IMG/VR virus record: IMGVR_UViG_3300047476_001728
Coordinates: 1-43,613 of that record
From: a virus
Length of the DNA: 43,613 nt
Strand: one strand, 5' to 3'
A program made the position numbers and the translations under genes. Positions 29,223 through 43,460 of this stretch are shown in pieces. Within the stretch, counting starts at the first letter, position 1. Every line of letters begins with the position of its first letter. The notes below the pieces were generated by a model that saw only the letters and a program-made list of their open reading frames with translations, did not search any database and had not been told where the DNA came from.

Positions 29223-29287
29223 TTTGTTGGAAGAGTTGCGCTTTTGTCGCGACTTCGTGTAAAGTTGGTCTTGTCGGGAAAACGACA
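29223..29287 (+). promoter_or_regulatory. Promoter with start-site hairpin (unit 29312)
   Basis: A degenerate box TTTGTTGGAAGAGTTG runs into TTGCGC at 29236; TAAAGT lies at 29260 after 18 bases. The hairpin TGTCG-GGAAAA-CGACA occupies 29272-29287, beginning at the predicted first base. GGAAAGGCACGAAA then precedes the GTG. Confidence 0.72.
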
Positions 29288-29311
29288 CTCAACTACTGGA
29301 AAGGCACGAAA

Positions 29312-29818
29312 GTGAACCCAACAACATTCGGAGAAGTTTCTTCCGAGATTGCTGACGCACTTGCCACTTCTCACGAAGAGGTAAGCACCAAGCCTCGCCT
29401 AATGGGAATGGGCATTTACCTTGAGGCGCACGCAACTAACTCATACGCACGAACCACCCAAGTTCTGATTACCCCAAGTGGTAAGAACGAAAAGGGCGAA
29501 GTCGTAAGTATGGCTGTTATCTATCGCACCATTAGCGAGTTCTCACCTCGCGCTCAATGGCGCACTAACTTCGTTCGAACCCCTAAAGAGTTTGACGCTA
29601 TGTCGCCTGTTGATAAGGCTGTCGAACTTGGTTCGCGTGCGAGCGAAATCACTGCGCGTATGTTCCCAGAGGGATTTACGCCACGACCACGACCAATCGT
29701 GTTCGAACTAACTGATGTTGATTTCACTGACATCAGCACTTGGAAAGCACCTGCGTCTGCGTTGCGCCGAATCACCAAAGCGCGCGCCGAAGTTGGCTAC
29801 CCAGAAAACCTTTACTAG
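29312..29818 (+). CDS. Hypothetical protein upstream of MoxR-type ATPase, 168 aa
   Basis: A GTG start follows the hairpin leader. The protein is alpha/beta with AYARTTQVLITPSGK-like strands and a C-terminal helical part ending ASALRRITKARAEVGYPE. No known family is recognised. It shares a transcript with the ATPase gene (27-base gap), so it may be a third partner or substrate adaptor of the MoxR/VWA pair. Confidence 0.72.
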   Translation: MNPTTFGEVSSEIADALATSHEEVSTKPRLMGMGIYLEAHATNSYARTTQVLITPSGKNEKGEVVSMAVIYRTISEFSPRAQWRTNFVRTPKEFDAMSPVDKAVELGSRASEITARMFPEGFTPRPRPIVFELTDVDFTDISTWKAPASALRRITKARAEVGYPENLY

Positions 29819-29845
29819 GGAAATCGAAAAGGACGGAAAACTGAA

Positions 29846-30862
29846 ATGACTACTACAACAAACACCTACGAAGAAATCGTGGACGCAATCTACCCAGAAC
29901 TCACCTCGCTGATTTTCGGCGTTGCTGTTCAGGGTGAGGACGAAACCAAAGTTCCTGCTGGTCTGACTTCGCTAATGCCGAAAAGTGGACGCGCTAATCT
30001 TCGCGCTAAGATTGGAACTGGAACTCCAAAACCAAAGGCAAAGGCAACTGTGAGCGTAGAAACGATTGAGGGTGCGGAGAAGTATCAGCGTCCGAATGGC
30101 GACTTCTACTTCTCTCGCACTTGGGGAGAACATTCAGATGTTGAGGTTCTTCGCAAAGCACGCGCAAACAATCAGTATGTGCTTTTGTATGGTGCGCCCG
30201 GAACTGGCAAAACTGCTCTCGTTGAGGGTGCGTTCCCAGACGAACTTTACACAATCCTTGGTTCTGGCGACACCGAACTTTCGGACTTCATTGGTGGCTA
30301 TGTCCAAACTCCAAGTGGTTCGTTCGAATGGGTGGACGGCGTTTTGGTAAAGTCTGCCGAAGAGGGCAAGGTTCTCTTGATTGACGAGATTGGTCTGATT
30401 GACCCAAAGGTTCTTTCGGCTGTCTATGGTCTTATGGACGGACGCAAGGAAATCGTAATCACTGCGAACCCAGAGCGCGGAACTGTAAAAGCAAAGGACG
30501 GCTTTTATGTGATTGGCGCGACAAATCCCAATGCGCCCGGAGTTCGCCTAAGCGAGGCGTTGCTCTCTCGTTTTTCCATTCAGGCAGAAATGACGACTGA
30601 CTGGTCGTTGGCGAAAAAGTTGGGCGTTCCTGCGTCTGCTGTTTCGGTTGCCCAGAACCTTGCGAAAAAGCAAGCGAATGGTGAAACTTCGTGGTCGCCT
30701 CAAATGCGTGAACTGTTGGCATACAAGTCAATCAGCGAAGTGTTTGGGACTAAGTTCGCAATCTCCAACTTGCTTGCGAGTGCGCCAGAACTTGACCGCC
30801 CTGTCGTGGCAGATGTTTTCACTCGCGTGTTCGGTGAAGAGTGCCGTCCTGCCAAGATTTAG
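29846..30862 (+). CDS. MoxR/CobS-like AAA+ ATPase
   Basis: The 338-residue protein has Walker A YGAPGTGKTALVEG near residue 115, Walker B GKVLLIDEIGLIDP near residue 175 and sensor 1 VIGATNPNAPGVRLSEAL with the arginine LLSRF soon after. GDTELSDFIGGYVQ is typical of MoxR/CobS proteins, which remodel or load metals together with VWA partners. The partner here is the 31154 gene. About 100 extra residues precede the AAA+ core. Reading the whole gene, I found no GATC and no AGCT. Confidence 0.92.
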   Translation: MTTTTNTYEEIVDAIYPELTSLIFGVAVQGEDETKVPAGLTSLMPKSGRANLRAKIGTGTPKPKAKATVSVETIEGAEKYQRPNGDFYFSRTWGEHSDVEVLRKARANNQYVLLYGAPGTGKTALVEGAFPDELYTILGSGDTELSDFIGGYVQTPSGSFEWVDGVLVKSAEEGKVLLIDEIGLIDPKVLSAVYGLMDGRKEIVITANPERGTVKAKDGFYVIGATNPNAPGVRLSEALLSRFSIQAEMTTDWSLAKKLGVPASAVSVAQNLAKKQANGETSWSPQMRELLAYKSISEVFGTKFAISNLLASAPELDRPVVADVFTRVFGEECRPAKI

Positions 30863-30885
30863 TTTCCGTCCGAAACTGAAAAGCG

Positions 30886-30918
30886 AAGTGCCAGAGAAAT
30901 CTGGCACTTTTGCTTTTT
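30886..30918 (+). terminator. Rho-independent terminator
   Basis: AAGTGCCAG pairs with CTGGCACTT around AGAAAT, followed by a T-rich run. It ends the 29312-30862 transcript. Confidence 0.9.
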
Positions 30919-31091
30919 GGTGGAAAGGCAGCTCTAGGGATCGTACGCATTACTTCCAACGAAGAAATCAAAAGCTTGACCACTGATCGATCACCCGGGT
31001 GGATGGCCCAGGATTTAATCACCCAAAAGCTTGGGCCAAAGCTGCGCCGGACTTGGGATCGAAATCGAACGAAATCTTTTCTTGGATTGAG

Positions 31092-31121
31092 TTGCGCCAA
31101 AGTGTAAAAGTGCGCTATCCT
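31092..31121 (+). promoter_or_regulatory. Promoter for 31154
   Basis: TTGCGC at 31092 and TATCCT at 31116 are 18 bases apart. No tight hairpin is seen at the start; CAGT...ACTG at 31133-31150 is a weak substitute. TGGAAAGGACTGGAAATG follows. Confidence 0.55.
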
Positions 31122-31153
31122 GAATAGGTAATCAGTTTTGGAAAGGACTGGAA

Positions 31154-32944
31154 ATGACACACTTCACACCTAACTCGCGCCTCGCAACTCGCGCTGGCTC
31201 AACTCCGTCTGAATGGTTGGCGACTTGCGCCCAGATTGGTAAGGTCGCAAACGATTGGGCTGGTCGTAATGACTTGGCTGTCTACGCTGGTGAGGACGCT
31301 GGTATGGGGCAAGCGATTGCTTGTTTCATTGGCTCTACTGCCGAAATCGAAATCAACTTGGCTGGTGCTTTTGGGAAAGCAACTAAGCCAGAAATGGTTG
31401 GCGACTTCACACTTCGCGAAACTCAATACGATTGGGCAGAGCCAACTGGCGTGATTTATCACGAGGCTCTTCACGCGCGTTCGTCTGACAAGTGGGATTA
31501 CTCGCTCTTCGAAAGCGAACATCACAAGGGCAACCAAAATGTTCTTGACGCTTTCTGGTTGCTTGAGGAATCTCGCATTGAGCGCATTGGCGTTCTGACC
31601 TATCCAAAGAACAGGCTCTTCCTGCGTGCGTCTGCTCTTGGTCTTGCTCTTGGCGAGATTGACGAAGAGGCGTTGTCAAAGTTGAGCGAGGTTCGCGTGC
31701 TTGCTCAAATGTCTGGACTTGCTCTCGCGCGAGTGGACGCTGGCGTTCTTGGTCTGGCAGATGTTCAGAAGATTTATGAGCGCGCGCTTGAGGTTCTTGG
31801 TAGCGAGTTGTTTGAGAAGTTGCGTTCTGTTTGGGTGCGTTTCCACGCTCTTCCAAATGGCGCGACTGTCGCTGGTCTTGACTTGGCTCGCGAGTGGGTG
31901 GACTTGCTACGCGAGGCTGACCCAGAGGGCGAGAGTGGCGAGGGTGCTGGAATGGCTTTCGTTCTCGCAAGCAAAGGCGACTTGGAAGAGGACGCTGGCG
32001 AAACTGCGATTGCTGTTTCGATTGACTTGTCTGACCAACAGACTGACGAAGAGTGGGCAGAAGAGGCAAAGGGTCGCGCAAGCCAGAGCAAGAAGAAGAG
32101 CGAAGAGCGCAAGGTGGCAGAGGTGATTTTCGACAAGCGCGAAGAGGGTTCTACTGGAACGAAGTCGCGTTCATCACTTCGCGAAAAGCGTGCGCCAAAA
32201 TCTGGTGAGCGTGCGAGTGCTGTCAAGATTGCTGAAATGCTGGACAAGGCGAAGTATCGTGAGCGTTCAGTTCACACTCGCAAAACTCACGCGCCACTTG
32301 GCAAACTCAACACTCGCAACGCTGTTCAGAATAGTGCTATGAAGTCAATGGGGTTGCGTGGCGAACTCCCTGCTTGGAAGTCGAAGTCGCGCAAACACAC
32401 TGACGACCCAACGCTGACCATTGGCGTAATGGTGGACATTTCTGGTTCTATGGGTTCGGCTATGGACGCTATGGCGACAACTGCTTGGGTTCTTAGCGAG
32501 GCTGGTCGTAGGGTTCAGGCGAAAACCGCTATGGTCTACTTCGGTGAAGATGTGTTCGCGACACTCAAGGTTGGGCAGAAGTTGGAAGAAGTTTCGGTCT
32601 GGTCTGCGCCAGACGGAACGGAAGTTTTTGACAAGGGTTTCTCGGCTCTCAATGGCGCGCTTGGTCTGACCTATTCGGACGGCGTGCGTTTGTTGGTTGT
32701 TGTATCGGACGGAAACTACACTCCGAAAGAAACCGAAAACGCGAAACGGATTGTCAAGGAATGTGAACAGGCTGGCGTGGCTGTTCTGTTCATCACTCCA
32801 AAGGATTGCTACGGAACTGGCGCGCAAGACATCACGCGCGGAACTCACGCGGTTCACCTAAACGGAATGGCTGTCGAAAGTATCGCGCTGGAAATCGGCA
32901 AGTCCGCGTCTGACGCTCTCGCGAAAATCGGGGGTGGCGTGTAA
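31154..32944 (+). CDS. VWA-domain protein with HExxH metallopeptidase-like N-terminus
   Basis: The 596-residue protein is the partner of the MoxR-like ATPase. Residues about 95-160 contain GVIYHEALHARSS, a zinc HExxH motif, and FWLLEESRIERIG, which may give the third ligand. A highly charged linker (about 270-400) leads to a VWA domain: IGVMVDISGSMGSAM (the MIDAS DxSxS) near residue 425, then LLVVVSDGNYTPKETE. This domain order recalls the putative metallopeptidase plus VWA-like proteins (DUF2201 type) that pair with MoxR ATPases. The pair might process or remodel a target protein. No GATC or AGCT occurs in the part of the gene I read closely. Confidence 0.85.
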   Translation: MTHFTPNSRLATRAGSTPSEWLATCAQIGKVANDWAGRNDLAVYAGEDAGMGQAIACFIGSTAEIEINLAGAFGKATKPEMVGDFTLRETQYDWAEPTGVIYHEALHARSSDKWDYSLFESEHHKGNQNVLDAFWLLEESRIERIGVLTYPKNRLFLRASALGLALGEIDEEALSKLSEVRVLAQMSGLALARVDAGVLGLADVQKIYERALEVLGSELFEKLRSVWVRFHALPNGATVAGLDLAREWVDLLREADPEGESGEGAGMAFVLASKGDLEEDAGETAIAVSIDLSDQQTDEEWAEEAKGRASQSKKKSEERKVAEVIFDKREEGSTGTKSRSSLREKRAPKSGERASAVKIAEMLDKAKYRERSVHTRKTHAPLGKLNTRNAVQNSAMKSMGLRGELPAWKSKSRKHTDDPTLTIGVMVDISGSMGSAMDAMATTAWVLSEAGRRVQAKTAMVYFGEDVFATLKVGQKLEEVSVWSAPDGTEVFDKGFSALNGALGLTYSDGVRLLVVVSDGNYTPKETENAKRIVKECEQAGVAVLFITPKDCYGTGAQDITRGTHAVHLNGMAVESIALEIGKSASDALAKIGGGV

Positions 32945-33028
32945 GTCGGCGTGCCAAAGAAGTCCATTAGTGGATTGAGCAAACTCGTTTCCCCCTTTCC
33001 AATAATCGCTCTCCGCTAACGGATTAGG

Positions 33029-33065
33029 AATCCCTATCAGCCCCCACTGGTAGGGATTTCGTTTT
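33029..33065 (+). terminator. Rho-independent terminator
   Basis: AATCCCTATCAG pairs with CTGGTAGGGATT around CCCCCA and is followed by TTCGTTTT. It ends the VWA gene transcript. Confidence 0.88.
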
Positions 33066-33396
33066 GCCCGGACTAACGGTGGCGTGATGGCGTGCGCGAG
33101 AAAAGCTGCTGATTGATCACCCGGGTGGAACTACCCACGAAGACGGACGCGCTAGAGGATCTCGAATCGTACCCGGGAAAGATATCCGGTACCAGACTGC
33201 GCGGCCGTTGGTGATCGTTAGAAGTTCAGCAGCTTTAGATATCATGCCCGGGTGAAGCTTGGGCCGAGGATCGGGGGATCTCAGATCTTCAGTCGGATCG
33301 TCATACGCATGTAGGAGCTTTTGCTGATCGATCATAAGCTGCACCGGACCTGGCGAAAGCAGCTCTACGAAATGCCAAAACTTCGAACGAACCTAT

Positions 33397-33424
33397 TTGA
33401 AATGTCGCTGATGTATGCTACGAT
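33397..33424 (+). promoter_or_regulatory. Promoter for 33454
   Basis: TTGAAA at 33397 and TACGAT at 33419 are 16 bases apart. The leader has GAAGGGAAACGAA but no tight hairpin. Confidence 0.55.
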
Positions 33425-33453
33425 TTACTTGTTGCCAAAAGAAGGGAAACGAA

Positions 33454-33741
33454 ATGTGCGACAACTGTGGAAATAACATTCCAAACTTCGCTGAAATGGA
33501 GTTGGACGACAAAGACATTGCTGGCATTGCTCTTACTGCCATTGCTGTCTTCGTTGAGGATTACTGCCAAGATGGATACGCTGACCCAAGGATGTATCGC
33601 TTGCTGGAACTTGCGACTGAACTTGGAAAGAAGTTTGGTAGCGAGGGCTTGCTCACTTACTTGGAAACCACCAAGATTTACGCTGGTATGACCATTGACA
33701 CTTTGATTGAAGAACACAACCTAACTGGAGAGGAAAACTAG
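33454..33741 (+). CDS. Hypothetical protein, 95 aa
   Basis: The ATG at 33454 follows GAAGGGAAACGAA. The product begins MCDNCGNNIPNFAEMELD, with a possible CxxC metal site, and continues helical. It is the first gene of a two-gene unit with the Api92-like gene two bases downstream. Its function is unknown. Confidence 0.7.
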   Translation: MCDNCGNNIPNFAEMELDDKDIAGIALTAIAVFVEDYCQDGYADPRMYRLLELATELGKKFGSEGLLTYLETTKIYAGMTIDTLIEEHNLTGEEN

Positions 33742-33743
33742 AA

Positions 33744-34601
33744 ATGCCAAACTGGGTCTATAACACAATGAATGTTTCAGGTTCAAAGGAAACGATTGCT
33801 GAGTTCAAGGAACTGGCAGGGCGAAAAGCACCAACTGGATTCGACAGCCAAACTGGGTTGCTGACTTATGAAGATAAGGAGGAGGTCTTTTCATTCTGGA
33901 ACTTCATTGAGCCAGAGGATAAGGCACTCTACTTTGGGGCGAGCGACTACAAGCCAGAGGGCTACGATTCGTGGACTATGGAAGAGCGTATGGCTCACTC
34001 TATGAAGTTCTCGTCGAATGGCTGGTATGACTGGAACATTCGTGAGTGGGGAACTAAGTGGGACGCTTGTGATGTGGACTTGAATGACGACAGCGAAACC
34101 TCGCTGGGCTACTCGTTCAATACGGCGTGGAGTATTCCTGAGCCAGTCTTCAATGCGATTGTTCGGAAGTTCCCAACGCTGACCTTTGATTTCTGGAGTG
34201 AGGAAGAGCAGGGCTGGGGTGCGGAGTTCACTTCTTCGGACAGCGAAGAGGAGGGCGAGCGTTCCTTGATTATGACCAAGGAATGGGACATTCCCGACAG
34301 CCACCAAGACTATGTGGACAGGGACAGGGAAGAGTCGTGCAACTGCCAGAGCGACCCTGATGACGACGAGTATTGGTATGCGGATTGCCCTCGCCCCGAA
34401 AAGGAGTTTGAGGTAGTAGTTCGGCAAGTCATTCGGATTACGGCGAAGTCTGCTGAATCGGCGTGGGAGATTGCGAACGGCGTGCTGGAAAACTTCAACA
34501 ACGCCGAGCAACCGAACGGCGTGCGGATTAGTGAAGACAGCGTGGCGTGGGTTGAGGAAGACGGAGTGCGTGTCTATCCAACCTTGACCGAGGTTGCCTA
34601 A
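33744..34601 (+). CDS. DUF1281/Api92-like ferredoxin-fold protein
   Basis: The 285-residue protein starts MPNWVYNTMNVSGSKETI and has NGWYDWNIREWGTKWDAC then FNTAWSIPEPVFNAIVRKFP and GWGAEFT. This is the signature of DUF1281/Api92-like proteins, common on phages and plasmids, whose function is unknown. The C-terminal third adds an acidic Cys-containing part and a final alpha/beta piece. It ends at a strong terminator. Confidence 0.9.
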   Translation: MPNWVYNTMNVSGSKETIAEFKELAGRKAPTGFDSQTGLLTYEDKEEVFSFWNFIEPEDKALYFGASDYKPEGYDSWTMEERMAHSMKFSSNGWYDWNIREWGTKWDACDVDLNDDSETSLGYSFNTAWSIPEPVFNAIVRKFPTLTFDFWSEEEQGWGAEFTSSDSEEEGERSLIMTKEWDIPDSHQDYVDRDREESCNCQSDPDDDEYWYADCPRPEKEFEVVVRQVIRITAKSAESAWEIANGVLENFNNAEQPNGVRISEDSVAWVEEDGVRVYPTLTEVA

Positions 34602-34616
34602 CCAAAACGGACAGAG

Positions 34617-34650
34617 AACACCAGTGGCGAGAGAGCTGCTGGTGTTTTTT
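34617..34650 (+). terminator. Rho-independent terminator
   Basis: AACACCAGTGGC pairs with GCTGCTGGTGTT around GAGAGA, followed by TTTTTGTTT. The -35 box of the next promoter begins right after it. Confidence 0.9.
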
Positions 34651-34652
34651 GT

Positions 34653-34681
34653 TTGACGGATTGGCGTGCGTACACTACGCT
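34653..34681 (+). promoter_or_regulatory. Leaderless promoter of the ClgR-like regulator
   Basis: TTGACG at 34653, 17-base spacer, TACGCT at 34676, six bases, ATG at 34688. The transcript should begin at the start codon. Confidence 0.78.
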
Positions 34682-34687
34682 GATCGT

Positions 34688-34990
34688 ATGACTAGTGAAT
34701 TGCTATACCGCGAAGCCCTCGGACACGTTGCACGCGAGGAACGGATCGATCAAAAGCTAACCCTACGCCAGGTTTCTACTCGTGCGAACATGGCACTCGG
34801 ATACCTGAGCGAGCTGGAGCGTGGACAGAAAGAAGCTTCTTCCGAAGTTGTATCATCCTGGGCCGCAGCTCTTTCCCTGAGTGCCGGAGAAATGATTATT
34901 CGCGCTGGGATCTTGGTTGGTGGGTATCAGATCCCTGACACTGTCGAAGAGCTGCTGGTCGATCTAGGCCAAAAAACTTTCGCTAAATAG
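34688..34990 (+). CDS. XRE-family regulator, ClgR-like
   Basis: The 100-residue protein has REALGHVAREERIDQKLTLR, QVSTRANMALGYLSELERGQ and KEASSEVVSSWAAALSLS. The LR.VS..A..SLGYLSE.ERGQKE.SSE motif is the HTH of ClgR/PopR regulators, which control Clp protease genes in actinobacteria. I chose the ATG at 34688 because of the leaderless promoter. Unlike its neighbours, the gene is full of GATC and AGCT words, so it may have a different history. It may control the array's promoters or host proteolysis. Confidence 0.85.
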   Translation: MTSELLYREALGHVAREERIDQKLTLRQVSTRANMALGYLSELERGQKEASSEVVSSWAAALSLSAGEMIIRAGILVGGYQIPDTVEELLVDLGQKTFAK

Positions 34991-34991
34991 T

Positions 34992-35019
34992 TTGTATTTT
35001 CGCTGACTTAGTGTAAACT
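34992..35019 (+). promoter_or_regulatory. Promoter for 35068
   Basis: TTGTAT at 34992 and TAAACT at 35014 are 16 bases apart. The leader of about 42 bases contains GCC...GGGC, a loose pairing, then AGGGAAAGAGGGAG. Confidence 0.5.
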
Positions 35020-35067
35020 GGTGGCGTGCCTGAAAAAGAGTAGGGCGTAGGGAAAGAGGGAGTTCCA

Positions 35068-35541
35068 ATGGGACTAGATATGTATCTATCTGCTCGCAAG
35101 TACGTGAGTGGCTACGATTTCAACAAAGAGCCAGAGAAGCAGGCGTACGCTGAAGTTCTATCTGCTAGTGGCTTGACCAAGGCAGACTTGGAGTATGGCA
35201 ACCCAAGTGCCACAATCGAAATCAGCGTGGGTTACTGGCGCAAGGCGAACGCCATTCACAACTGGTTCGTTCAGAATGTTCAGGGTGGTCGTGATGAGTG
35301 CCAGAAGGCTTGGGTATCTCGTGAGCAACTGGCTGAACTTCTTGAGGCGTGCCAGACTGTATTGGCTGATGCCACCAAGGCTGATGAGTTGTTGCCACCA
35401 CAGAGTGGGTTCTTCTTCGGTGGAACTGACCTTGATGAGTGGTACTACGACAGCCTGAAGCAAACTGCTGAAATGCTGAACCACCTTTTGACTTCGGAAA
35501 GTCTGAAGGATTACGATTTCGAATACCAATCCAGTTGGTAG
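35068..35541 (+). CDS. Conserved phage protein (MGLDMYL family)
   Basis: The 157-residue protein begins MGLDMYLSARKYVSGYDF and has VGYWRKANAIHNWFVQNVQ, CQKAWVSREQLAEL and LLPPQSGFFFGGTDLDEWYY, ending FEYQSSW. I know this pattern from many phage and bacterial proteins annotated only as hypothetical. It is a single-gene unit with its own promoter and terminator. No catalytic role is known. Confidence 0.88.
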   Translation: MGLDMYLSARKYVSGYDFNKEPEKQAYAEVLSASGLTKADLEYGNPSATIEISVGYWRKANAIHNWFVQNVQGGRDECQKAWVSREQLAELLEACQTVLADATKADELLPPQSGFFFGGTDLDEWYYDSLKQTAEMLNHLLTSESLKDYDFEYQSSW

Positions 35542-37284: not shown

Positions 37285-37299
37285 GGAAAGTAGGGAAAA

Positions 37300-37530: not shown

Positions 37531-37547
37531 CGCTGACTCAAAGTTAG

Positions 37548-37582
37548 CCCCGCAGCTCTCGCAGCTTGCGGGGTTTTCTTTT
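37548..37582 (+). terminator. Rho-independent terminator
   Basis: CCCCGCAG pairs with TTGCGGGG around CTCTCGCAGC, followed by TTTTCTTTTG. Confidence 0.9.
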
Positions 37583-37644
37583 GTCTGATCAATCAGAGCC
37601 AGGATCACCGGCGCTGAAACATCGAACGAAGTTTGGGCGTGTTG

Positions 37645-37695
37645 TTGCAAAGTTTGCTGGACTATGCAATAATCAGAGGGTAGTCAAAAGGCTAC
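37645..37695 (+). promoter_or_regulatory. Promoter with start-site hairpin (unit 37713)
   Basis: TTGCAA at 37645 and AATAAT at 37668 are 17 bases apart. The hairpin GTAGTC-AAAA-GGCTAC (37680-37695) starts at the predicted first base. CGAAAGGGAAACA precedes the ATG. Confidence 0.78.
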
Positions 37696-37712
37696 TAATC
37701 GAAAGGGAAACA

Positions 37713-38237
37713 ATGGGAACTCGAAACCTAACTGCAGTAATCAAGAATGGCGCACCTGTAATCGCGCAGTATGGCCAATGGGATGGCTATCCAGAGGGAC
37801 AGGGCACAACTGTCTATGAATTCGTCAAGCACGCGGGAGTGGCTCGTCTCGAGGCAAACTTGGACAAGGCTTACTGGGCTGACGAGGACGAACTCAAGGC
37901 CATCTACTCAAAGTATCAGAGTGAAGAAGGCTGGATGACTATGGAGCAAGGTCAAGCATTTGGCGAAGCCTATCCAAGTCTCTCTCGCGACACTTGTGCC
38001 GAAATCCTTAGCGTGGTTGCCAATGCAACAAAGCGCGTGCCTCTGGTAAACGAGATGGCATTTTTACAGGACACCTTGTTTTGTGAGTGGGCGTATGTCC
38101 TTGACCTCGACACTCGAACCCTCAAGGTCTACGCTGGGTCCGACGAACCTCAAGTGGAGTTTTCGTTGGATGACTTTCCAAGCACGAACGAAGAGTTTGT
38201 GAAGGGTTGCTACAACGCGAGTGAGTCTCGCGTCTAG
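37713..38237 (+). CDS. Conserved phage protein (MGTRNLTAV family)
   Basis: The start at 37713 follows CGAAAGGGAAACA. The 174-residue protein begins MGTRNLTAVIKNGAPVIAQY and GQWDGYPEGQGTTVYEFV, a pattern shared by many uncharacterised phage proteins. The C-terminus has FCEWAYVLDLDTRTLKVYAG and an acidic end. No catalytic role is known. Confidence 0.86.
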   Translation: MGTRNLTAVIKNGAPVIAQYGQWDGYPEGQGTTVYEFVKHAGVARLEANLDKAYWADEDELKAIYSKYQSEEGWMTMEQGQAFGEAYPSLSRDTCAEILSVVANATKRVPLVNEMAFLQDTLFCEWAYVLDLDTRTLKVYAGSDEPQVEFSLDDFPSTNEEFVKGCYNASESRV

Positions 38238-38253
38238 TCGCCATAAAAGATTG

Positions 38254-38281
38254 CCCCCGCAGAAATGTGGGGGTTTTCTTT
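38254..38281 (+). terminator. Rho-independent terminator
   Basis: CCCCCGC pairs with GTGGGGG around AGAAAT, followed by TTTTCTTTTG. Confidence 0.92.
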
Positions 38282-38370
38282 TGCCCGAGATCCTGGCGAT
38301 CACCGGTTGCAGCTGGCTGATCAGCTAAAAAATTCGTTATCATTTTGTGACAAAAAAGTGCCCTCTGGGC

Positions 38371-38430
38371 TTGACTTGCGAAACTTAGCAGACTAGGCTT
38401 GGTATTACAAGCGAACACAAGGTTGGCTTG
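38371..38430 (+). promoter_or_regulatory. Promoter with start-site hairpin (unit 38452)
   Basis: TTGACT at 38371 and TAGGCT at 38394 are 17 bases apart. CAAGC (38408) pairs with GCTTG (38426) and AAC with GTT inside, starting about two bases after the predicted first base. TAGGGAAAGGACGAAA precedes the ATG. Confidence 0.7.
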
Positions 38431-38451
38431 ATTTCTAGGGAAAGGACGAAA

Positions 38452-38748
38452 ATGGCTAAGGCTGTTGTCGTTGATGTTGTAGCCCTGATTGACGAACTGG
38501 TTTCAGTTCGTGAAGCAAAGGCTGAACTATCTGCTCGTGAGAGCGTTATCCGCAAGTCGGTTCTTGGAGCGACTGGCAACACTGCTGTTTCGATTGCTGA
38601 CGAGGCTGGCGTGATTATCGCCGAGGTAGTCGAGAGCACTCGCCGTTCAGTTTCAGACTGGGACGAGTTCGAGGCAACCTATCCAGAGGCATACGAGGCA
38701 CTAGTGAAGTTTACTGATGTCCTCACCCTCAACACTGTCAAGAAGTAA
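38452..38748 (+). CDS. Hypothetical helical protein, 98 aa
   Basis: The start at 38452 follows AGGGAAAGGACGAAA. The N-terminal half is a long helix (VVALIDELVSVREAKAELSA, RESVIRKSVL), then a short beta pair (NTAVSIADEAGVIIAEVV) and a helical end. This helix-then-strands layout resembles phage host-nuclease inhibitor Gam-like or small bacterial proteins, but I cannot confirm any. Confidence 0.7.
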   Translation: MAKAVVVDVVALIDELVSVREAKAELSARESVIRKSVLGATGNTAVSIADEAGVIIAEVVESTRRSVSDWDEFEATYPEAYEALVKFTDVLTLNTVKK

Positions 38749-38764
38749 TCTCGAGGCAGACAAG

Positions 38765-38796
38765 CCCCTCAGTCGAAAGACTGGGGGGTTTTTCTT
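38765..38796 (+). terminator. Rho-independent terminator
   Basis: CCCCTCAGTC pairs with GACTGGGGGG closed by a GAAA loop, followed by TTTTTCTTTCT. Confidence 0.94.
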
Positions 38797-38799
38797 TCT

Positions 38800-38987
38800 C
38801 TGGTCGCTGGTCGATCCGATTACCGGTCGCCCTGGTTTGATCGTGATCGTTGGTGGTTCGTTAGAAGTTATGAAGCGAATCGCAGCAGCTGGCCTTGCAG
38901 CTTAGTCGCAGCTCGTTGGAAGTTTCACCGGAGCTGGCGCAGCTCGAGGCAGCTCGAGAGTGTTACAGATTCGTTATCAAAAAACAC
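38800..38987. other. Palindrome-rich spacer with promoter boxes
   Basis: No gene is called here. The spacer holds TTCGTTAGAAGTTA at 38857, a partial CTCGTTGGAAGTTT near 38911, and many AGCT, GATC and CAGCTCGAGG words. It leads into the promoter at 38988. Confidence 0.55.
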
Positions 38988-39016
38988 TTGACAAGTTTTG
39001 GGTTGGGTAGTAGTTT
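38988..39016 (+). promoter_or_regulatory. Promoter for the 17-residue gene
   Basis: TTGACA at 38988 is a perfect -35 box; TAGTTT at 39011 follows after 17 bases. The leader contains AAAGGGAGATAGGGGG, without a hairpin. Confidence 0.72.
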
Positions 39017-39047
39017 TGGAAGTAGAAAGGGAGATAGGGGGTGCAAG

Positions 39048-39101
39048 ATGTGTGAAGACTATCCATGCTGTGGCCATGACCATGGCGACTGCCCTAACTA
39101 G
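39048..39101 (+). CDS. Micro-protein, 17 aa, Cys/His-rich
   Basis: The product is MCEDYPCCGHDHGDCPN. It is flanked by a consensus promoter, a purine-rich ribosome site and a perfect terminator 17 bases after the stop, so the unit looks purpose-built. I recall longer bacterial and phage proteins beginning MCEDFPCCGH.., which supports translation. Four Cys and two His in 17 residues suggest metal binding. A longer in-frame reading from upstream would need to start inside the promoter and is unlikely. Confidence 0.7.
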   Translation: MCEDYPCCGHDHGDCPN

Positions 39102-39117
39102 GTAGTCAAACAAGAAG

Positions 39118-39140
39118 CCCCCGAAAGGGGGTTTTCTTTT
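39118..39140 (+). terminator. Rho-independent terminator
   Basis: CCCCC-GAAA-GGGGG followed by TTTTCTTTTT. Confidence 0.93.
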
Positions 39141-39141
39141 T

Positions 39142-39326
39142 GCCCAGAGATCTCGCGGCTGATCTCCGGAGATCTCGCAGCTGAGATTGATCTGATCACC
39201 AGGGCCGGACCAGGGAGATCTAGCCAGGTGGTTACCGGTGATCCAGATTTGACAAGCTGCAGCTAATTCGTTGAAAGTTAGATGACCCGGGAGCTGGTTG
39301 ATCGATCAAGACACGAAAAAAAAATG
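39142..39326. other. Spacer dense in GATC and AGATCT words
   Basis: This stretch has no gene. It contains about ten GATC sites, several AGATCT, CAGCTG, ACCGGT, CCCGGG and CTGCAG words, and an extra TTCGTTGAAAGTT at 39267. The genes on each side have none of the GATC or AGCT words I looked for. Confidence 0.65.
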
Positions 39327-39388
39327 TTCGTTGGATGTTGCGTGTTATCCCAAAATGCGGTATCTTTTAGTTAGGCGAAAACGCCTAA
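39327..39388 (+). promoter_or_regulatory. Promoter with start-site hairpin (unit 39405)
   Basis: The box TTCGTTGGATGTTG at 39327 ends in the -35 TTGCGT (39338); TATCTT at 39361 follows after 17 bases. The hairpin TTAGGCG-AAAA-CGCCTAA (39371-39388) begins within two bases of the predicted start. Confidence 0.83.
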
Positions 39389-39404
39389 ACGAAAGGGAAA
39401 CGAA

Positions 39405-39800
39405 ATGACAAACTTTGATTTGGTTGAAGAACGATTGGTAGATGCCAAGGCGATTGCTTGGGACACTTGCCACAAGATTTACGTGTTGATGGATGATGAG
39501 CAAGTCTCGCTTATGCGTGAGTATGGCTATGGAGACGGAACTGATACAGAGGGGCTTATCACTAAATACGCAATGAGCGCAGACAAGATGCTGGAAAAGG
39601 TCAAGCACTGGTATGACGAGAGTTGTGGTTTGCGCTTTGTGAGCGCAGTCTCGACTATGCCAGAAGGTGTAGATGCTAACGAAGGCTTTGAGACCTTGAT
39701 TGGGCAGTTCGAAGAAGACGATTGCGAGGATTGCGGTGAGCGTGGTTGTGCTGGTGTCTGTAATGACTACGAAGACGAAGACGAAGACGAAGAAGACTAG
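39405..39800 (+). CDS. Hypothetical protein with Cys cluster and acidic tail, 131 aa
   Basis: The start follows CGAAAGGGAAACGAA. The protein is helical and ends with EEDDCEDCGERGCAGVCNDY and a run of Asp/Glu. The four Cys in CxxC....CxxxC may bind a metal. No family is recognised. The repeated GAAGAC codons at the end are low complexity. Confidence 0.72.
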   Translation: MTNFDLVEERLVDAKAIAWDTCHKIYVLMDDEQVSLMREYGYGDGTDTEGLITKYAMSADKMLEKVKHWYDESCGLRFVSAVSTMPEGVDANEGFETLIGQFEEDDCEDCGERGCAGVCNDYEDEDEDEED

Positions 39801-39878
39801 GGGGAGCTTGGCTACGGCCGCGCTCGCGGATCGAAGCTAGTCGCCTTGGTTGATCGATCACAAGACACAAAATTAGTA

Positions 39879-39938
39879 TTCGTTTGAAGTTGCGCTAACA
39901 AGCAAAATGTATTATCTTTGTATTAGGCAAATTGCCTA
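39879..39938 (+). promoter_or_regulatory. Promoter with start-site hairpin (unit 39957)
   Basis: The box TTCGTTTGAAGTTG at 39879 ends in the -35 TTGCGC (39890); TATCTT at 39913 follows after 17 bases. The hairpin TAGGCA-AAT-TGCCTA (39924-39938) starts at the predicted first base. Confidence 0.83.
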
Positions 39939-39956
39939 GGAAAGTAGGGAAAGAAA

Positions 39957-40166
39957 ATGAGTTTCGGAGAGCCGAAGTATCCAGATGTTCAAGTTCAGCT
40001 GGTCGGGGAAGATGGAAATGCTTTCGCGATTATGGGTCGCGTAGCAAGCGCGCTAAAGAGCGCAGGGGTTCCTCAGTCTGAGATTGACGAATACTACGAG
40101 GAGAGCACGAGTGGCGATTATGACAACTTGCTACGCACCGCTGTCAAATGGGTGGCGGTGGCATAA
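39957..40166 (+). CDS. Conserved small phage protein, 69 aa
   Basis: The product contains YPDVQVQLVGEDGNAFAIMG, RVASALKSAGVPQSEIDEYY and SGDYDNLLRTAVKWV. The V.L.G.DGNAF.I...V..AL..AG......E......SGDYD.LL pattern is one I know from phage proteins of unknown function. Its stop overlaps the ATG of the next gene. Confidence 0.8.
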   Translation: MSFGEPKYPDVQVQLVGEDGNAFAIMGRVASALKSAGVPQSEIDEYYEESTSGDYDNLLRTAVKWVAVA

Positions 40167-40513
40167 TGGGTGACCGCGCATACATTCAAGTTGAAGCCGA
40201 GGGTTTCAAGACGCCGATTACTTTTTATGGGCACTGGTCAGGAGAGGACAACATTCTTGCTGTTCGTAATGTCCTAAGTCGCAGTGGTCGTATTGGTGAC
40301 GCGAGTTACCTCACCGCGCAGATTTTCTATGAGTTCGCAACGCTAGGCAACTACGATGGCGAACTTTCATTCGGGATTGATAACTATGGAGATGACCCCG
40401 AGGTCGTTGGCTGGGCGAACAACCCTACGGTTTATGTCAATGCTGATACTGGTGTTTATCGCTATAAGGGCGAAACGTTTACCGAGTTTGCGGAAATGGC
40501 AAAGAGCGTGTAG
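40166..40513 (+). CDS. Conserved phage protein, 115 aa
   Basis: The start at 40166 overlaps the previous stop (TAATG). The product begins MGDRAYIQVEAEGFKTPITF, then YGHWSGEDNILAVRNVLSRS and SYLTAQIFYEFATLGNYDGE. I know similar proteins from phages, where they have no assigned function. It shares the transcript of the 39957 gene. Confidence 0.78.
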   Translation: MGDRAYIQVEAEGFKTPITFYGHWSGEDNILAVRNVLSRSGRIGDASYLTAQIFYEFATLGNYDGELSFGIDNYGDDPEVVGWANNPTVYVNADTGVYRYKGETFTEFAEMAKSV

Positions 40514-40538
40514 ACTGTAAGAGTTGCTTGGGTTTGAG

Positions 40539-40590
40539 ATTACTCGCCCGAGTAATGCGCGGAAGGAGTTATCCCCCTTTCACCTTCCGC
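40539..40590 (+). other. Two hairpins before the terminator (structured 3' RNA)
   Basis: ATTACTC-GCCC-GAGTAAT (40539-40556) and GCGGAAGG...CCTTCCGC (40559-40590, 16-base loop AGTTATCCCCCTTTCA) precede the terminator hairpin at 40599. Three stems in about 90 bases is more than other units have. It could be a small RNA released from the 3' end or a processing element. Confidence 0.5.
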
Positions 40591-40598
40591 AAAGAGAG

Positions 40599-40636
40599 CG
40601 GTAGCAAGTCCCCCCTTGCTACCGTTTTTCTTTTGT
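40599..40636 (+). terminator. Rho-independent terminator
   Basis: CGGTAGCAAG pairs with CTTGCTACCG around TCCCCC, followed by TTTTTCTTTTG. Confidence 0.93.
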
Positions 40637-40721
40637 CTGGAGTAGGGCCGCGCTCGCGGTGATCGATCAGAGCTGCCCTGGCCGGAGCGGAGCTTGCCAA
40701 GATCGAAACGCGCTCGCGGTA

Positions 40722-40778
40722 TTCGTTTGAAGTTGCTTGCTTTTGTTTCTGTTATGGGGTAACCTGTTGGTATCCAAT
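40722..40778 (+). promoter_or_regulatory. Promoter with box and small hairpin (unit 40788)
   Basis: TTCGTTTGAAGTTG at 40722 is followed by TTGCTT at 40737 and TAACCT at 40760, or other -35/-10 choices. The hairpin GTTGG-TAT-CCAAT (40766-40778) lies near the start. GAAAGGGAAATG follows. Confidence 0.6.
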
Positions 40779-40787
40779 GAAAGGGAA

Positions 40788-40931
40788 ATGATGGAAACCA
40801 AAGAGACTACAACTTGCTACAAATGTGAAGCCGAGATTGAAGCATTCGTTGGGCAAGTTCATCCGTTGTGTGAAGAGTGTGCCGAAGATTTTGACGATTG
40901 GTTCGCACAACAATTGCGGATGTTTAAGTAG
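40788..40931 (+). CDS. Small zinc-ribbon-like protein, 47 aa
   Basis: Two ATG codons in a row (40788, 40791) can start it. The product has CYKCEAEIEAFVGQVHPLC and EECAEDFDDWF, a CxxC...CxxC pattern for one zinc. It is one of several small treble-clef or ribbon-like proteins in the window. The function is unknown. Confidence 0.7.
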   Translation: MMETKETTTCYKCEAEIEAFVGQVHPLCEECAEDFDDWFAQQLRMFK

Positions 40932-40957
40932 ACACGCAACACGCCGAAGTTTGTTTG

Positions 40958-40986
40958 TTGCTTGTTTGAGCAAACTAGGCTAGTCT
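40958..40986 (+). promoter_or_regulatory. Promoter for 41013
   Basis: TTGCTT at 40958 and TAGTCT at 40981 are 17 bases apart. Only a weak four-pair stem around GGAAATACC is possible at the start. GAAAGGGGAAACGAA precedes the ATG. Confidence 0.6.
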
Positions 40987-41012
40987 GGAAATACCTAGAA
41001 AGGGGAAACGAA

Positions 41013-41162
41013 ATGGGAAAGCAAGACACGATTTGGATTGGTTGCTGGGATTGTGGTAAGACTGTTGAAGTGCCTTGGATTGGCAACTATTCAAGTCGCC
41101 AGATTTGTGCCGAGTGTAAAGCAGAAAGGGCTGAAAAATGGGCAGTAATCTCGAAGTCGTAA
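41013..41162 (+). CDS. Small zinc-ribbon-like protein, 49 aa
   Basis: The start follows GAAAGGGGAAACGAA. The product has IGCWDCGKTVEVPW and ICAECKAERAEKW, again CxxC...CxxC. It overlaps the next gene by 25 bases and is the first of four overlapping genes. Confidence 0.7.
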   Translation: MGKQDTIWIGCWDCGKTVEVPWIGNYSSRQICAECKAERAEKWAVISKS

Positions 41163-41362
41163 ATCGCTACAAAAGGCGCAAGGAACTTATGAGCGCACGC
41201 AAGACCGCGCTCGAAGTGTTTGGCGCACTCGCCGAGTTTGACGCGAAGCCAAATGTGTTCTCTATCTTTGATGGGATGGAGTTTGAAGTTGTGAACGAAA
41301 CTGGTATCGCCTTGGATGTTGAGTTTGTTGGTCGCACCATTACTATCAAGAGGTGGAAATAA
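41138..41362 (+). CDS. Small hypothetical protein, 74 aa
   Basis: The ATG at 41138 lies inside the previous gene; an ATG at 41189 (MSARKTALEVFGALAEFD) would give 57 residues. The product has a helix then a beta hairpin (GMEFEVVNETGIALDVEF). No family is recognised. Confidence 0.62.
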   Translation: MGSNLEVVNRYKRRKELMSARKTALEVFGALAEFDAKPNVFSIFDGMEFEVVNETGIALDVEFVGRTITIKRWK

Positions 41363-41364
41363 TC

Positions 41365-41559
41365 GTGATTAGGTATCACCGTTTTATGGAAAAGTTTTGG
41401 CGCGTGATTGGTTCAGTCGCTTATCGCACCTTTCACACAACGCAGACGCTCGCGCACAAGTCTTATGTCAAAGGTGGTCGCCACGGTCGCCGCCGTCAAG
41501 AGCGCAAACCCCTAACCGCAATTTGGAAGTGGTGGCAAAGTGTCAAGGCGCAATTCTGA
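41365..41559 (+). CDS. Small basic protein, 64 aa
   Basis: The start is a GTG at 41365 with AAGAGG upstream; a GTG at 41353 is possible. The product is rich in Arg, Lys and Trp (RYHRFMEKFWRVIGSVAY, GGRHGRRRQERKPL, WKWWQSVKAQF). It may bind nucleic acid or membrane. It overlaps the next gene by 20 bases. Confidence 0.55.
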   Translation: MIRYHRFMEKFWRVIGSVAYRTFHTTQTLAHKSYVKGGRHGRRRQERKPLTAIWKWWQSVKAQF

Positions 41560-41701
41560 GTTTGCGATTATTTGGCGTGGTATCTCGATCGGGCTAGGTT
41601 TTATGTTCGTTATGGGATTCGCTATTGGGTATGACAACGCCATCGCGCCAGGACTACTGTTGCTCGCAGCTTTAGGTTCGTTGTGGTTATCACGAGATTG
41701 A
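41540..41701 (+). CDS. Small two-helix membrane protein, 53 aa
   Basis: A GTG start inside the previous gene gives MSRRNSEFAIIWRGISIGLG then FMFVMGFAIG and APGLLLLAALGSLWL, two hydrophobic helices. The size is holin-like, but it is not near the lysis genes. Unlike its neighbours it contains GATC and AGCT. The -35 box of the next promoter begins two bases after its stop. Confidence 0.58.
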   Translation: MSRRNSEFAIIWRGISIGLGFMFVMGFAIGYDNAIAPGLLLLAALGSLWLSRD

Positions 41702-41702
41702 T

Positions 41703-41752
41703 TTGACTTTTTATCAAAACGCAGTAAACTGATTCTGTTAGCAAATGCTAGC
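41703..41752 (+). promoter_or_regulatory. Promoter with start-site hairpin (unit 41773)
   Basis: TTGACT at 41703 and TAAACT at 41725 are 16 bases apart. The hairpin GTTAGC-AAAT-GCTAGC (41737-41752) starts at the predicted first base. AAAGGGAAACAAA precedes the ATG. Confidence 0.78.
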
Positions 41753-41772
41753 GCAAAGGAAAGGGAAACAAA

Positions 41773-42144
41773 ATGACTACAAAGGTATTCGCAATTCGCT
41801 CGAATGAAGACGGCGGATTTATTTTCGGGGAAGAGACACACGAAGTTATTTCACTTGAGTTCTTACAGTCATTCGTTGGCGGTTGGGTTCAGGTTGTCCC
41901 GTTGGCAGGTTCACTAAGTGGCTTGTCAATGTGGCTAAACGAAGAGGGTAAGTTTTCAGACCTTCCGCTAAATGAGTTGGCTACGGCTATTTGGGAAGAC
42001 TCATACGGCAAGACTGACTTTATCGTTGGTAACATTCTAATTACTGGTGGCGAGAACTACGATGGCGAGATTGAGTCTCTCACTAGTGAAGAAACTGATA
42101 AGATTATGGAAGTCGTTCTAAAGGCAATGGAACACTCTCACTAA
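41773..42144 (+). CDS. DUF3846 protein
   Basis: The 123-residue protein has FVGGWVQVVPLAGSLSGLSM, WLNEEGKFSDLPLNELATAI and YGKTDFIVGNILITGGENYD. This is the DUF3846 signature (GG..Q.V.L.......NE.GK...LP.N..AT.......D.I.G...I.G). The domain is common on phages and mobile elements and has no known function. Confidence 0.87.
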   Translation: MTTKVFAIRSNEDGGFIFGEETHEVISLEFLQSFVGGWVQVVPLAGSLSGLSMWLNEEGKFSDLPLNELATAIWEDSYGKTDFIVGNILITGGENYDGEIESLTSEETDKIMEVVLKAMEHSH

Positions 42145-42369
42145 GTTTCGTTTCCCTACGAAAACAAAGACCTAGGCTAAGTCTCTAAACTGGCCTTTTA
42201 TCACGCCTAGATTCGGAAAGCTCGCGCTCGCGGGATCACGATCAAACGGCGCTCGCGGATTGCCCTGGCCTAGCTTGCCTTGGCTTGGCCGGACCTTGGT
42301 CGATCGATCCGCAGCTCGCAACTCGCAGCTTATCCCCTTGGTCGATCCACGCGACACACTGGGGCAACA
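42145..42369. other. Spacer with CTCGCG, GATC and AGCT words
   Basis: No gene is supported. TTTCG...CGAAA at 42147-42165 may be a weak terminator stem. The rest holds two GCGCTCGCGG-like copies (42224, 42250), GATCGATC and repeated CTTGCC/CTTGGC and CGCAGCT words, up to the promoter box at 42370. Confidence 0.55.
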
Positions 42370-42431
42370 TTCGTTGGAAGTTGCTTGACTTTTTTCTCGA
42401 AACGCGGGATACTTGGATTAGCCGAAAGGCT
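42370..42431 (+). promoter_or_regulatory. Promoter with start-site hairpin (unit 42452)
   Basis: TTCGTTGGAAGTTG at 42370 is followed by TTGACT at 42385 and GATACT at 42408 (17 bases) or TACTTG at 42410. The hairpin AGCC-GAAA-GGCT (42420-42431) begins at the predicted start and has a GNRA loop. Confidence 0.8.
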
Positions 42432-42451
42432 CGAATGAAAGGGAAACGAAA

Positions 42452-42877
42452 ATGGAAACTGTAATCACCGAATACGAAAACTACGAATTGACCAATTCTT
42501 GTATTTGCGAAGATTGGGATGAAGACACCGACACTTATTCGCCTAGCGATTCTTGCTGGGGTTGCTACGAAGACGAGATGGCTAATTTCAAGTCTGAGAT
42601 TCTGAAGCCTTGGATGAGCGCAAACGGTTATGACGAAGACACCGAGTTGGTTGCTCGCGGAACTGGAATGACTTGGCAACGCTTGAGCGGATACGCTTAC
42701 CTAACGCCAGACGAGATGGTTGAGAAGTTGTCTATCAATGGCGATTGGACTTTACGATTCACTCTCTCAGATGGTGGCAAGACGCTTACTGTTGTTCGCT
42801 ACTCTCACGATGAGCCTGTTGGAACTGGCTTGATTACTTTTGAGCCGAAGCCCGAAGACGAAGACGAATTGTTCTAG
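42452..42877 (+). CDS. Hypothetical Cys-containing protein, 141 aa
   Basis: The start follows GAAAGGGAAACGAAA. The N-terminal part has NSCICEDWDEDTDTYSPSDS and CWGCYEDEM, then a middle with GTGMTWQRLSGYAYLTPDEM and a beta-rich end WTLRFTLSDGGKTLTVVRYS. The T...R.GTGMTW.R..GY pattern is familiar from phage proteins of unknown function. It is a single-gene unit. Confidence 0.75.
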   Translation: METVITEYENYELTNSCICEDWDEDTDTYSPSDSCWGCYEDEMANFKSEILKPWMSANGYDEDTELVARGTGMTWQRLSGYAYLTPDEMVEKLSINGDWTLRFTLSDGGKTLTVVRYSHDEPVGTGLITFEPKPEDEDELF

Positions 42878-42897
42878 CGCGACACGCTCGCGACACG

Positions 42898-42928
42898 CAA
42901 CCGCCCAATGTGGCGGTTGTTGTGTTTT
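42898..42928 (+). terminator. Rho-independent terminator
   Basis: CAACCGCC pairs with GGCGGTTG around CAATGT, followed by TTGTGTTTTT. Confidence 0.82.
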
Positions 42929-42944
42929 TGGCAGATGTATGGCA

Positions 42945-42970
42945 TACTTTTGTTATCGGCAGAAAGCCGA
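42945..42970 (+). promoter_or_regulatory. -10 box and start-site hairpin (unit 42990)
   Basis: TACTTT at 42945 is followed by the hairpin TCGGC-AGAAA-GCCGA (42956-42970) at the predicted start. The -35 region is weak and partly overlaps the preceding terminator. CGAAAGGGAAACAAA precedes the ATG. Confidence 0.68.
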
Positions 42971-42989
42971 AAAACGAAAGGGAAACAAA

Positions 42990-43160
42990 ATGGCATTAGA
43001 CGCAAAGACCGCAAGCAATGTTCGTCACTTGCTAATGAGCCTGTCGGCAGAATCAACCGTAGATGTTTGGCTACTGGCAGAGAACGAAGAGTTGGCGGAA
43101 CTTTACAAAAGTGGCGCAACCTATGAGCAAATGCTCGAATGGGTGAATGAAAACTACTAG
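42990..43160 (+). CDS. Small helical protein, 56 aa
   Basis: The start follows CGAAAGGGAAACAAA. The product is helical: MALDAKTASNVRHLLMSL, then VDVWLLAENEELAELYKS and YEQMLEWVNENY. It looks like a compact three-helix protein. No family is recognised. Confidence 0.7.
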   Translation: MALDAKTASNVRHLLMSLSAESTVDVWLLAENEELAELYKSGATYEQMLEWVNENY

Positions 43161-43177
43161 CCCAAAGAAATGGAAAG

Positions 43178-43205
43178 CCCTCGCGAAAGCGGGGGTTTTC
43201 TTTTT
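43178..43205 (+). terminator. Rho-independent terminator
   Basis: CCCTCGC-GAAA-GCGGGGG followed by TTTTCTTTTT. Confidence 0.93.
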
Positions 43206-43331
43206 ACGCGCTCGCGGTTTCGATCGAAATTAGAAAGCCAATGGTCGATCGATCCGCCCTGGTTCTTTTGCCGGAAGCCTGGAAAGCTCGCAGCTTGTTC
43301 GTGGAAAGTTGGCAGCTCGCGCCGGGTTGTT

Positions 43332-43364
43332 CGCAGCTTGGGCGCAGCTTGGGCGCAGCTTGGG
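43332..43364. repeat. Three tandem copies of an 11-base unit
   Basis: CGCAGCTTGGG occurs three times without change in the spacer before the last promoter. Partial copies (GCAGCTTG, GCAGCTCG) are scattered through the 43.2-43.4 kb spacer and earlier ones. Confidence 0.85.
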
Positions 43365-43412
43365 CTAGAAATTTTCGTTATTTATTTGTTACCAAATTTC
43401 TCTAGATTTGAC

Positions 43413-43460
43413 TTGACTTTTGGCAAATACGCGCTACGCTTATTACATAAGCCAAACGGC
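43413..43460 (+). promoter_or_regulatory. Promoter with short hairpin (unit 43480)
   Basis: TTGACT at 43413 and TACGCT at 43435 are 16 bases apart. GCC-AAAC-GGC (43451-43460) lies four bases after the predicted start. CGAAAGGGAAATGAA precedes the ATG. Confidence 0.72.

Follow-up and report, generated by a model that had tools for sequence, protein, structure and literature searches.

The right arm of IMG/VR virus record IMGVR_UViG_3300047476_001728 raises the question of why so many of its predicted transcripts carry a short hairpin between the −10 box and the ribosome site, and why the sequence of the stem differs from unit to unit. The window analyzed here is the whole stretch of DNA, i.e., the 43.6-kb virus record (43,613 nucleotides [nt]; 47.9% GC). 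No close match to the window was found among phage records. Its MoxR-like ATPase (29846–30862) has relatives in actinophages, i.e., Actinomycetia phage DSL-LC01 (73% identity), Microbacterium phages Pumpernickel, Cece, and Zooman, and Gordonia phages Sixama and GodonK, and one relative sits inside an Aquiluna metagenome-assembled genome (MAG); therefore, the host is very probably an aquatic actinobacterium. As detailed below, our analyses support that the hairpins begin at or next to the predicted transcription start and that their pairing is under selection.

The first-pass annotation had listed ten hairpins, all of which we recovered, nine with stems of at least 5 bp and one with 4 bp (all features described here are on the plus strand). 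TGTCG(GGAAAA)CGACA (29272–29287) is located 6 nt after the −10 box TAAAGT (29260–29265) and precedes the open reading frame (ORF) 29312–29818, while GTGGAC(AAAA)GTTCAC (35736–35751; one G-U pair) is located 6 nt after TACAAT (35724–35729) and precedes the SSB gene (35776–36165; Pfam match). GTTGGAA(AAG)TTCCAAC (36852–36868), GTAGCA(AGT)TGCTAC (37270–37284), and GTAGTC(AAAA)GGCTAC (37680–37695; one G-U pair) are located 7, 6, and 6 nt after TAAAGT (36839–36844), TATTTT (37258–37263), and AATAAT (37668–37673), respectively. TTAGGCG(AAAA)CGCCTAA (39371–39388) and TAGGCA(AAT)TGCCTA (39924–39938) follow copies of TATCTT at 4 nt (39361–39366) and 5 nt (39913–39918), respectively. GTTAGC(AAAT)GCTAGC (41737–41752; one G-U pair) is located 6 nt after TAAACT (41725–41730), and TCGGC(AGAAA)GCCGA (42956–42970), which has an identical stem in a related 136-kb contig (L005), 5 nt after TACTTT (42945–42950). 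Finally, the short 5′-proximal AGCC(GAAA)GGCT (42420–42431), 6 nt after GATACT (42408–42413), has 4 bp and falls below the threshold used for counting.

To assess significance in the window, we placed the −10 boxes by hand, required stems of at least 5 bp, and compared the units with 500 dinucleotide shuffles. Such a stem was present at an offset of 4 to 7 nt after the −10 box in 9 of the 17 right-arm promoter-plus-leader units compared to 1.19 ± 1.03 in the shuffled sequences (maximum, 5). With an automatic definition of units, 7 hairpins were found at offsets of 4 to 8 (1.0 ± 1.0 expected). Folding from the predicted start gave a single 5′ hairpin, with whole-leader energies of −3.7 to −9.2 kcal/mol, and left the purine-rich stretch and the ribosome site 3′ of the hairpin largely unpaired.

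For a comparative analysis, we used a set of 80 related loci from viral contigs. Leaders from these loci and the window were collected wherever a TANNNT box was followed at 18 to 42 nt by a GAAAGG-type ribosome site with an open frame, giving 372 units, of which 249 nonredundant leaders were left once similar leaders were removed. Among the 372 units, the excess of hairpins was confined to offsets of 4 to 8 (69 versus 16.5 ± 3.9 expected; elsewhere, 40 versus 38) and peaked at an offset of 6 (27 versus 3.5). The nonredundant leaders behaved similarly, with 50 hairpins at offsets of 4 to 8 against 10.9 ± 2.9 after shuffling (maximum, 17) and counts at or near background at offsets of 0 to 3 (9 versus 13.2) and 9 or more (20 versus 14.9). 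With random TANNNT sites as a control, the profile was flat (36 versus 31.8 ± 4.5). In the hairpin units, a purine occupies the 7th position after the −10 box in 86%, and the base before it is T in 72%; the non-hairpin units display a weaker form of the same pattern. Because the 7th base carries this start signature, the stem is predicted to begin at or next to +1. In six of the ten listed hairpins, the stem starts precisely at this 7th base, and in the remaining ones, it starts at most 2 nt away; the first-pass annotation had likewise placed the first stem base there in most units.

If the hairpin served the ribosome site, a constant distance to that site would be expected. This was not observed: hairpins at +1 were still in excess in leaders of at least 28 nt (19 versus 5.3 ± 2.4), and those adjoining the ribosome site but located away from +1 were at background level (4 versus 3.4 and 1 versus 3.0). 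The spacing therefore argues that the hairpin is anchored to the predicted +1 and not to the ribosome site.

Several observations bear on whether the pairing itself is maintained. The stem arms pair with their own partner at 98 to 100% of inner positions but with the partners of other units at only 51 to 54%. Among start-site stems of six positions with one internal non-Watson-Crick apposition, G-U was found in 13 cases versus 2.6 expected, i.e., a fivefold excess, while A-C (4 versus 3.4) and other appositions (13 versus 12.7) were as expected. Because G-U but not A-C is enriched over chance, and a protein-binding DNA palindrome would not favor one over the other, these patterns indicate that selection acts on RNA pairing and not on a DNA palindrome.

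Comparison of orthologous leaders points in the same direction. For ORF 29312, the stems in different phages, including the window, are TGTCG/CGACA, TGTTGGA/TCCAGCA, TTGTTGGA/TCCAACAA, TTGTGAGC/GTTCACAA, and TGTTGG/CCAACA, with TGTTAGG/CCTAGCA, GTAAC/GTTAC, GTAGC/GCTAC, and ATGGC/GCCAT in further orthologs. The GTGGAC/GTTCAC stem of the SSB gene is replaced by GCAATCA/TGGTTGC and AACAATCA/TGGTTGTT, and GTTGGAA/TTCCAAC of ORF 36882 by GTTGGG/CCCAAC, an A-U to G-C change. Five stems were found for ORF 37300 (GTAGCA/TGCTAC in the window and GTAGCG/TGCTAC, TATCAGG/CCTGATA, TAGTTAG/CTAACTA, and AGTTGGA/TCCAACT in orthologs), while GTAGTC/GGCTAC of ORF 37713 corresponds to GTAGTCA/TGGCTAC and GTGGTCA/TGACCAC. 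The hairpin at 39371 has the ortholog stems TAGGC/GCCTA, GACTAC/GTAGTC, and TGTAGTCA/TGGCTACA, and that at 39924 has TATTGGCA/TGTCAATA in L009. ORF 41773 has at least four stems, with TAACCCAA/TTGGGTTA, CATAAGCCA/TGGTTTATG, TAGGC/GCCTA, and TGTTAGC/GCTGACA in the orthologs of the hairpin at 41737. In L009 and L010, orthologs of the hairpin at 42420 have TAGTGG..CCACT around a longer loop.

Covariation was evaluated using register-true MAFFT subalignments (A4 and A3) in addition to the arm-swap, shuffle, and offset tests. In A4, 95.8% of cells were paired compared to 29 to 46% when the alignment was slid, and three pairs had changed on both sides; in A3, 90.5% of cells were paired, and four pairs had changed on both sides. 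The first-pass annotation had reported stems that differ while keeping their pairing between units of one genome; we confirmed this for the window, and covariation is also found in the orthologous leaders of related phages. Plain MAFFT with RNAalifold on 16 orthologous leaders predicted no consensus structure, which weighs against a paired element, and is accounted for by the variation of the stems in length and register, which makes the alignment slip.

The hairpins are not evenly distributed. In the clade nearest to the window, 34 of 96 units have a hairpin (5.5 expected), while the other relatives have 12 in 136 units (4.8 expected), and the named relatives DSL-LC01, Pumpernickel, Zooman, GodonK, and Sixama have isolated cases at most. 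In the L005 contig, all eight +1 hairpins map to 46.4 to 63.1 kb, a segment of ~17 kb that matches the right arm of the window, and none were found elsewhere. The Aquiluna MAG (398 kb), used as a host-genome control, had no excess (2 versus 1.9), although with just 36 usable units this sample is small. We note that a different clade (L016 to L018, L031, L036, L038, L041, L045, and others) has a fixed box, CCTGATATAATAG followed by CACCCAAACGACGAAAGGA, upstream of the ORF preceding the MoxR-like gene, with no hairpin at the matching position.

At the level of sequence, the existence of the structure, its position at the predicted start, selection for pairing in the RNA, and its restriction to one segment are well supported. 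As for function, the hairpin is probably a 5′-terminal stem-loop that deprives RppH-, RNase J-, and RNase E-type enzymes of a single-stranded end; where exactly transcription starts, the protection from decay, and the benefit to the phage are what we infer. The first-pass annotation had offered three mechanisms, i.e., protection from 5′ decay, binding of a phage protein, and favored translation. The first of these is the best fit, given that the position of the hairpin is tied to +1 instead of the ribosome site and that there is no conserved sequence for one protein to recognize; accordingly, a single phage protein reading the sequence is unlikely. Strong terminator-like sites are present 3′ of several window genes, and for this reason, many units look like single-gene cassettes. 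In the proposed mechanism, each unit would be a self-contained cassette in which a sigma-A-like promoter, a hairpin of 5 to 9 bp, and a ribosome site precede one or a few small genes, in many cases followed by an intrinsic terminator. The first base pair would form at the transcription start or no more than about 2 nt from it, upstream of an unstructured, purine-rich ribosome site (GAAAGGGAAA). The hairpin would fold on leaving the polymerase and leave 0 to 2 unpaired nucleotides at the 5′ triphosphate end, and this paired end would block pyrophosphate removal by RppH-type NUDIX enzymes as well as the loading of the 5′-end-dependent nucleases RNase J and RNase E. The short mRNAs of accessory genes would thereby be longer-lived. 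With pairing and position counting and the letters not, the stems would drift via compensatory change. The Aquiluna MAG, which is the sole candidate host genome, encodes RNase J, RNase E/G, and NUDIX proteins.

Precedents for such an element exist on single bacterial RNAs. The Mycobacterium tuberculosis small RNA (sRNA) DrrS starts at the first base of a stem; adding two or more 5′ nucleotides speeds its decay, and its stem-loop increases expression threefold when added to a lacZ message (PMC5360333). The elements described here resemble DrrS in their actinobacterial context and in a stem-loop that begins, as predicted, with the first nucleotide of the transcript, but DrrS is one host sRNA, while here many phage mRNAs per genome each have their own stem, with a putative function. 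RppH of Bacillus subtilis requires at least two unpaired 5′ nucleotides (PMC3997798), and in the 5′-terminal stem-loops of Escherichia coli ompA and papA and B. subtilis aprE, as cited there, the paired 5′ end hinders 5′-end-dependent decay. Those are single genes and not a genome-wide use with a distinct stem per promoter. In the ompA/DrrS kind, the stem starts within about 0 to 4 nt of the transcription start, and the stems in our set agree with this when the predicted start is taken; as in that kind, pairing matters and sequence does not, as judged from the compensatory changes and the G-U excess without an A-C excess. Based on these positional and structural marks, the element would work like the ompA/DrrS kind.

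Some observations weigh against 5′-end protection. The hairpin is lacking in about half of the window units and in most units of the relatives; because many units do without one, it is dispensable for expression. The host assignment is not firm, and RppH activity in the host is an assumption. Also, in 25 of the 50 nonredundant hairpin units, the stem ends 0 to 2 nt before the ribosome site, leaving room for a role in translation, in which the hairpin would keep the purine-rich ribosome site unpaired or stack beside it and so aid 30S loading. The unpaired state of that site in the folded leaders, and a second kind of hairpin that holds the ribosome site in its loop (see below), are in line with this explanation. 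Nevertheless, we regard a translation insulator or enhancer as unlikely since the enrichment tracks the distance from the −10 box, hairpins that only abut the ribosome site are at background, and those at +1 persist in long leaders.

The uniform size (mostly 5 to 8 bp with an A-rich loop) and placement of the hairpins, and an architecture common to many genes, would also be compatible with the binding of a protein, from either the phage or the host, that recognizes the shape of the stem rather than its sequence (e.g., an RNA chaperone or an RNase inhibitor of the phage) and marks messages for stabilization or preferential translation. We consider this improbable: the loops of 3 to 6 nt lack a consensus, and no candidate protein was identified. 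In fact, the AAAA-like loops described in the first-pass annotation hold as far as A-richness is concerned (48% A in the 50 nonredundant hairpins) but not as a tetraloop, with AAAA present in only 4 of 50. Still less plausible is a DNA palindrome that overlaps the start site and acts as the operator of a repressor or activator. Inverted repeats just past +1 are in a usual place for an operator, the cluster K mycobacteriophage extended start-associated sequence (ESAS) is such a palindrome, and the window encodes a helix-turn-helix (HTH) protein (34649–34990); however, the stems differ among units of one genome, so that no single protein could read them all, and the mismatches are G-U rather than A-C, which DNA dyads would not favor. 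Lastly, short stems are frequent by chance and alignment-based folding finds nothing, but the signal stands out from background in each of the controls (shuffles, offsets, random sites, and orthologs), and chance inverted repeats or a search artifact can practically be set aside.

The first-pass annotation had named the start-associated sequence (SAS) and ESAS of cluster K as the nearest parallel. The likeness consists in many copies before right-arm non-structural gene starts in actinophages, with inverted repeats near the promoter (PMC3203893, PMC11373665), but the parallel fails. The 13-bp SAS (GGGATAGGAGCCC), which lies at the ribosome site, had no sites with up to two mismatches on either strand of the window compared to 16 in the right half of Anaya. 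The ESAS inverted repeat (17 bp) has a fixed consensus, includes both the −35 and −10 boxes, and is situated upstream of +1; in Anaya, the promoter region is located in the repeat TGCATACAG..CTGTATGCA. By comparison, the repeat described here lies downstream of the −10 box and has no consensus. Changes in the ESAS were found by its authors to give little support for RNA pairing (PMC3203893, PMC11373665), in contrast to those in the window element. An intrinsic terminator or attenuator, which would have a GC-rich stem and then a U run, was rejected, as purine-rich ribosome sites follow the hairpins and none of the hairpins is in the terminator list. The leader of T7 gene 10 (class III) is an example of a phage mRNA starting with a hairpin that is thought to be stabilizing; it has a fixed sequence tied to the T7 promoter instead of diverging stems. 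An Rfam scan of the window gave only six tRNAs above the gathering score and no known RNA family at the hairpins; the tRNA genes map to 7838–8996 (Asp, Glu, Thr, Gln, Met, and Leu).

Other candidate structures are weaker. The total of thirteen units in the first-pass annotation was too generous, the extra cases at 35068, 38453, 40791, and 43441 being weak, long-looped, or 3 bp in length. GCC(AAAC)GGC (43451–43460), a candidate decayed hairpin before an ORF at about 43480, is not significant alone; two units of the L005 contig that resemble the 43441 unit have the stronger hairpins TAAGCC/GGCTTA (6 bp) and AAGCC/GGCTT (5 bp). A weak candidate found by sequence only, CAAGC/GCTTG with a 13-nt loop (38408–38430) before ORF 38452, was left out of the counts. 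In short leaders of L006, L007, L008, L009, and L044 and at 31134–31150 in the window, complementary arms flank GAAAGG such that the ribosome site is in the loop (type B; e.g., TTACC..GAAAGGGGTAA), and the stems differ between leaders. In the window case, a tentative one, CAGT..ACTG encloses the ribosome site GGAAAGG of ORF 31154; this case is kept in L003 and L005 and has an offset that does not correspond to +1. Type B stems of at least 6 bp numbered 31 versus 17.3 ± 3.9 in swapped controls (25 versus 15.3 ± 3.6 in short leaders); because this excess is only modest, type B is tentatively considered a second form.

Additional features were observed around these units. A repeated box near TTCGTTNGAAGTTGC overlaps the −35 region of several right-arm promoters (42385, 39335, 39877, 40721, and 37233), and other units have ATGTC 17 nt before the −10 box (14 of 28 occurrences at that spot); these may represent a binding site for an activator or a second class of promoter. 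A HicA-like ORF (36334–36540; Pfam match below the cutoff) begins ~6 nt past TACATT, a spacing that predicts a message with little or no leader. TACACT is found ~11 nt before the ATG of the HTH ORF (region about 34689–34990). The MoxR-like ATPase and an adjoining protein of 596 amino acids, whose relatives are annotated as cobalamin biosynthesis protein or AAA-ATPase, form a pair (29846–32944) that is kept in lake, Microbacterium, and Gordonia actinophages. ORF 39405–39800 ends in a run of GAAGAC repeats encoding an acidic tail, and the gaps between cassettes from 30930 to 43400 are dense in GATCGATC, GCAGCT, and CGCTCGCG words.

With 5′-terminal hairpins already known on single bacterial RNAs, what would be new is their systematic use by a virus, with a distinct stem per promoter and clear covariation; no earlier description of such a hairpin set was found in the literature searched, coverage of which was partial. 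A broader proposal, to which we give somewhat less than an even chance, is that this lineage caps the messages of accessory genes individually with a locally evolved, sequence-independent "structural cap" that would render phage transcripts resistant to 5′-end decay by the host, leaving host messages and phage structural genes uncapped, so that half-life and not promoter strength would bias expression during infection. If 5′-end protection is correct, these leaders would provide ready-made stabilizing elements for expression work in actinobacteria and a simple sign for locating transcription starts in uncultured phages. They would also represent a natural experiment with dozens of independent solutions to one RNA-decay problem and would suggest that phages of actinobacteria with RNase J and RNase E are under genuine selection from 5′-end decay.

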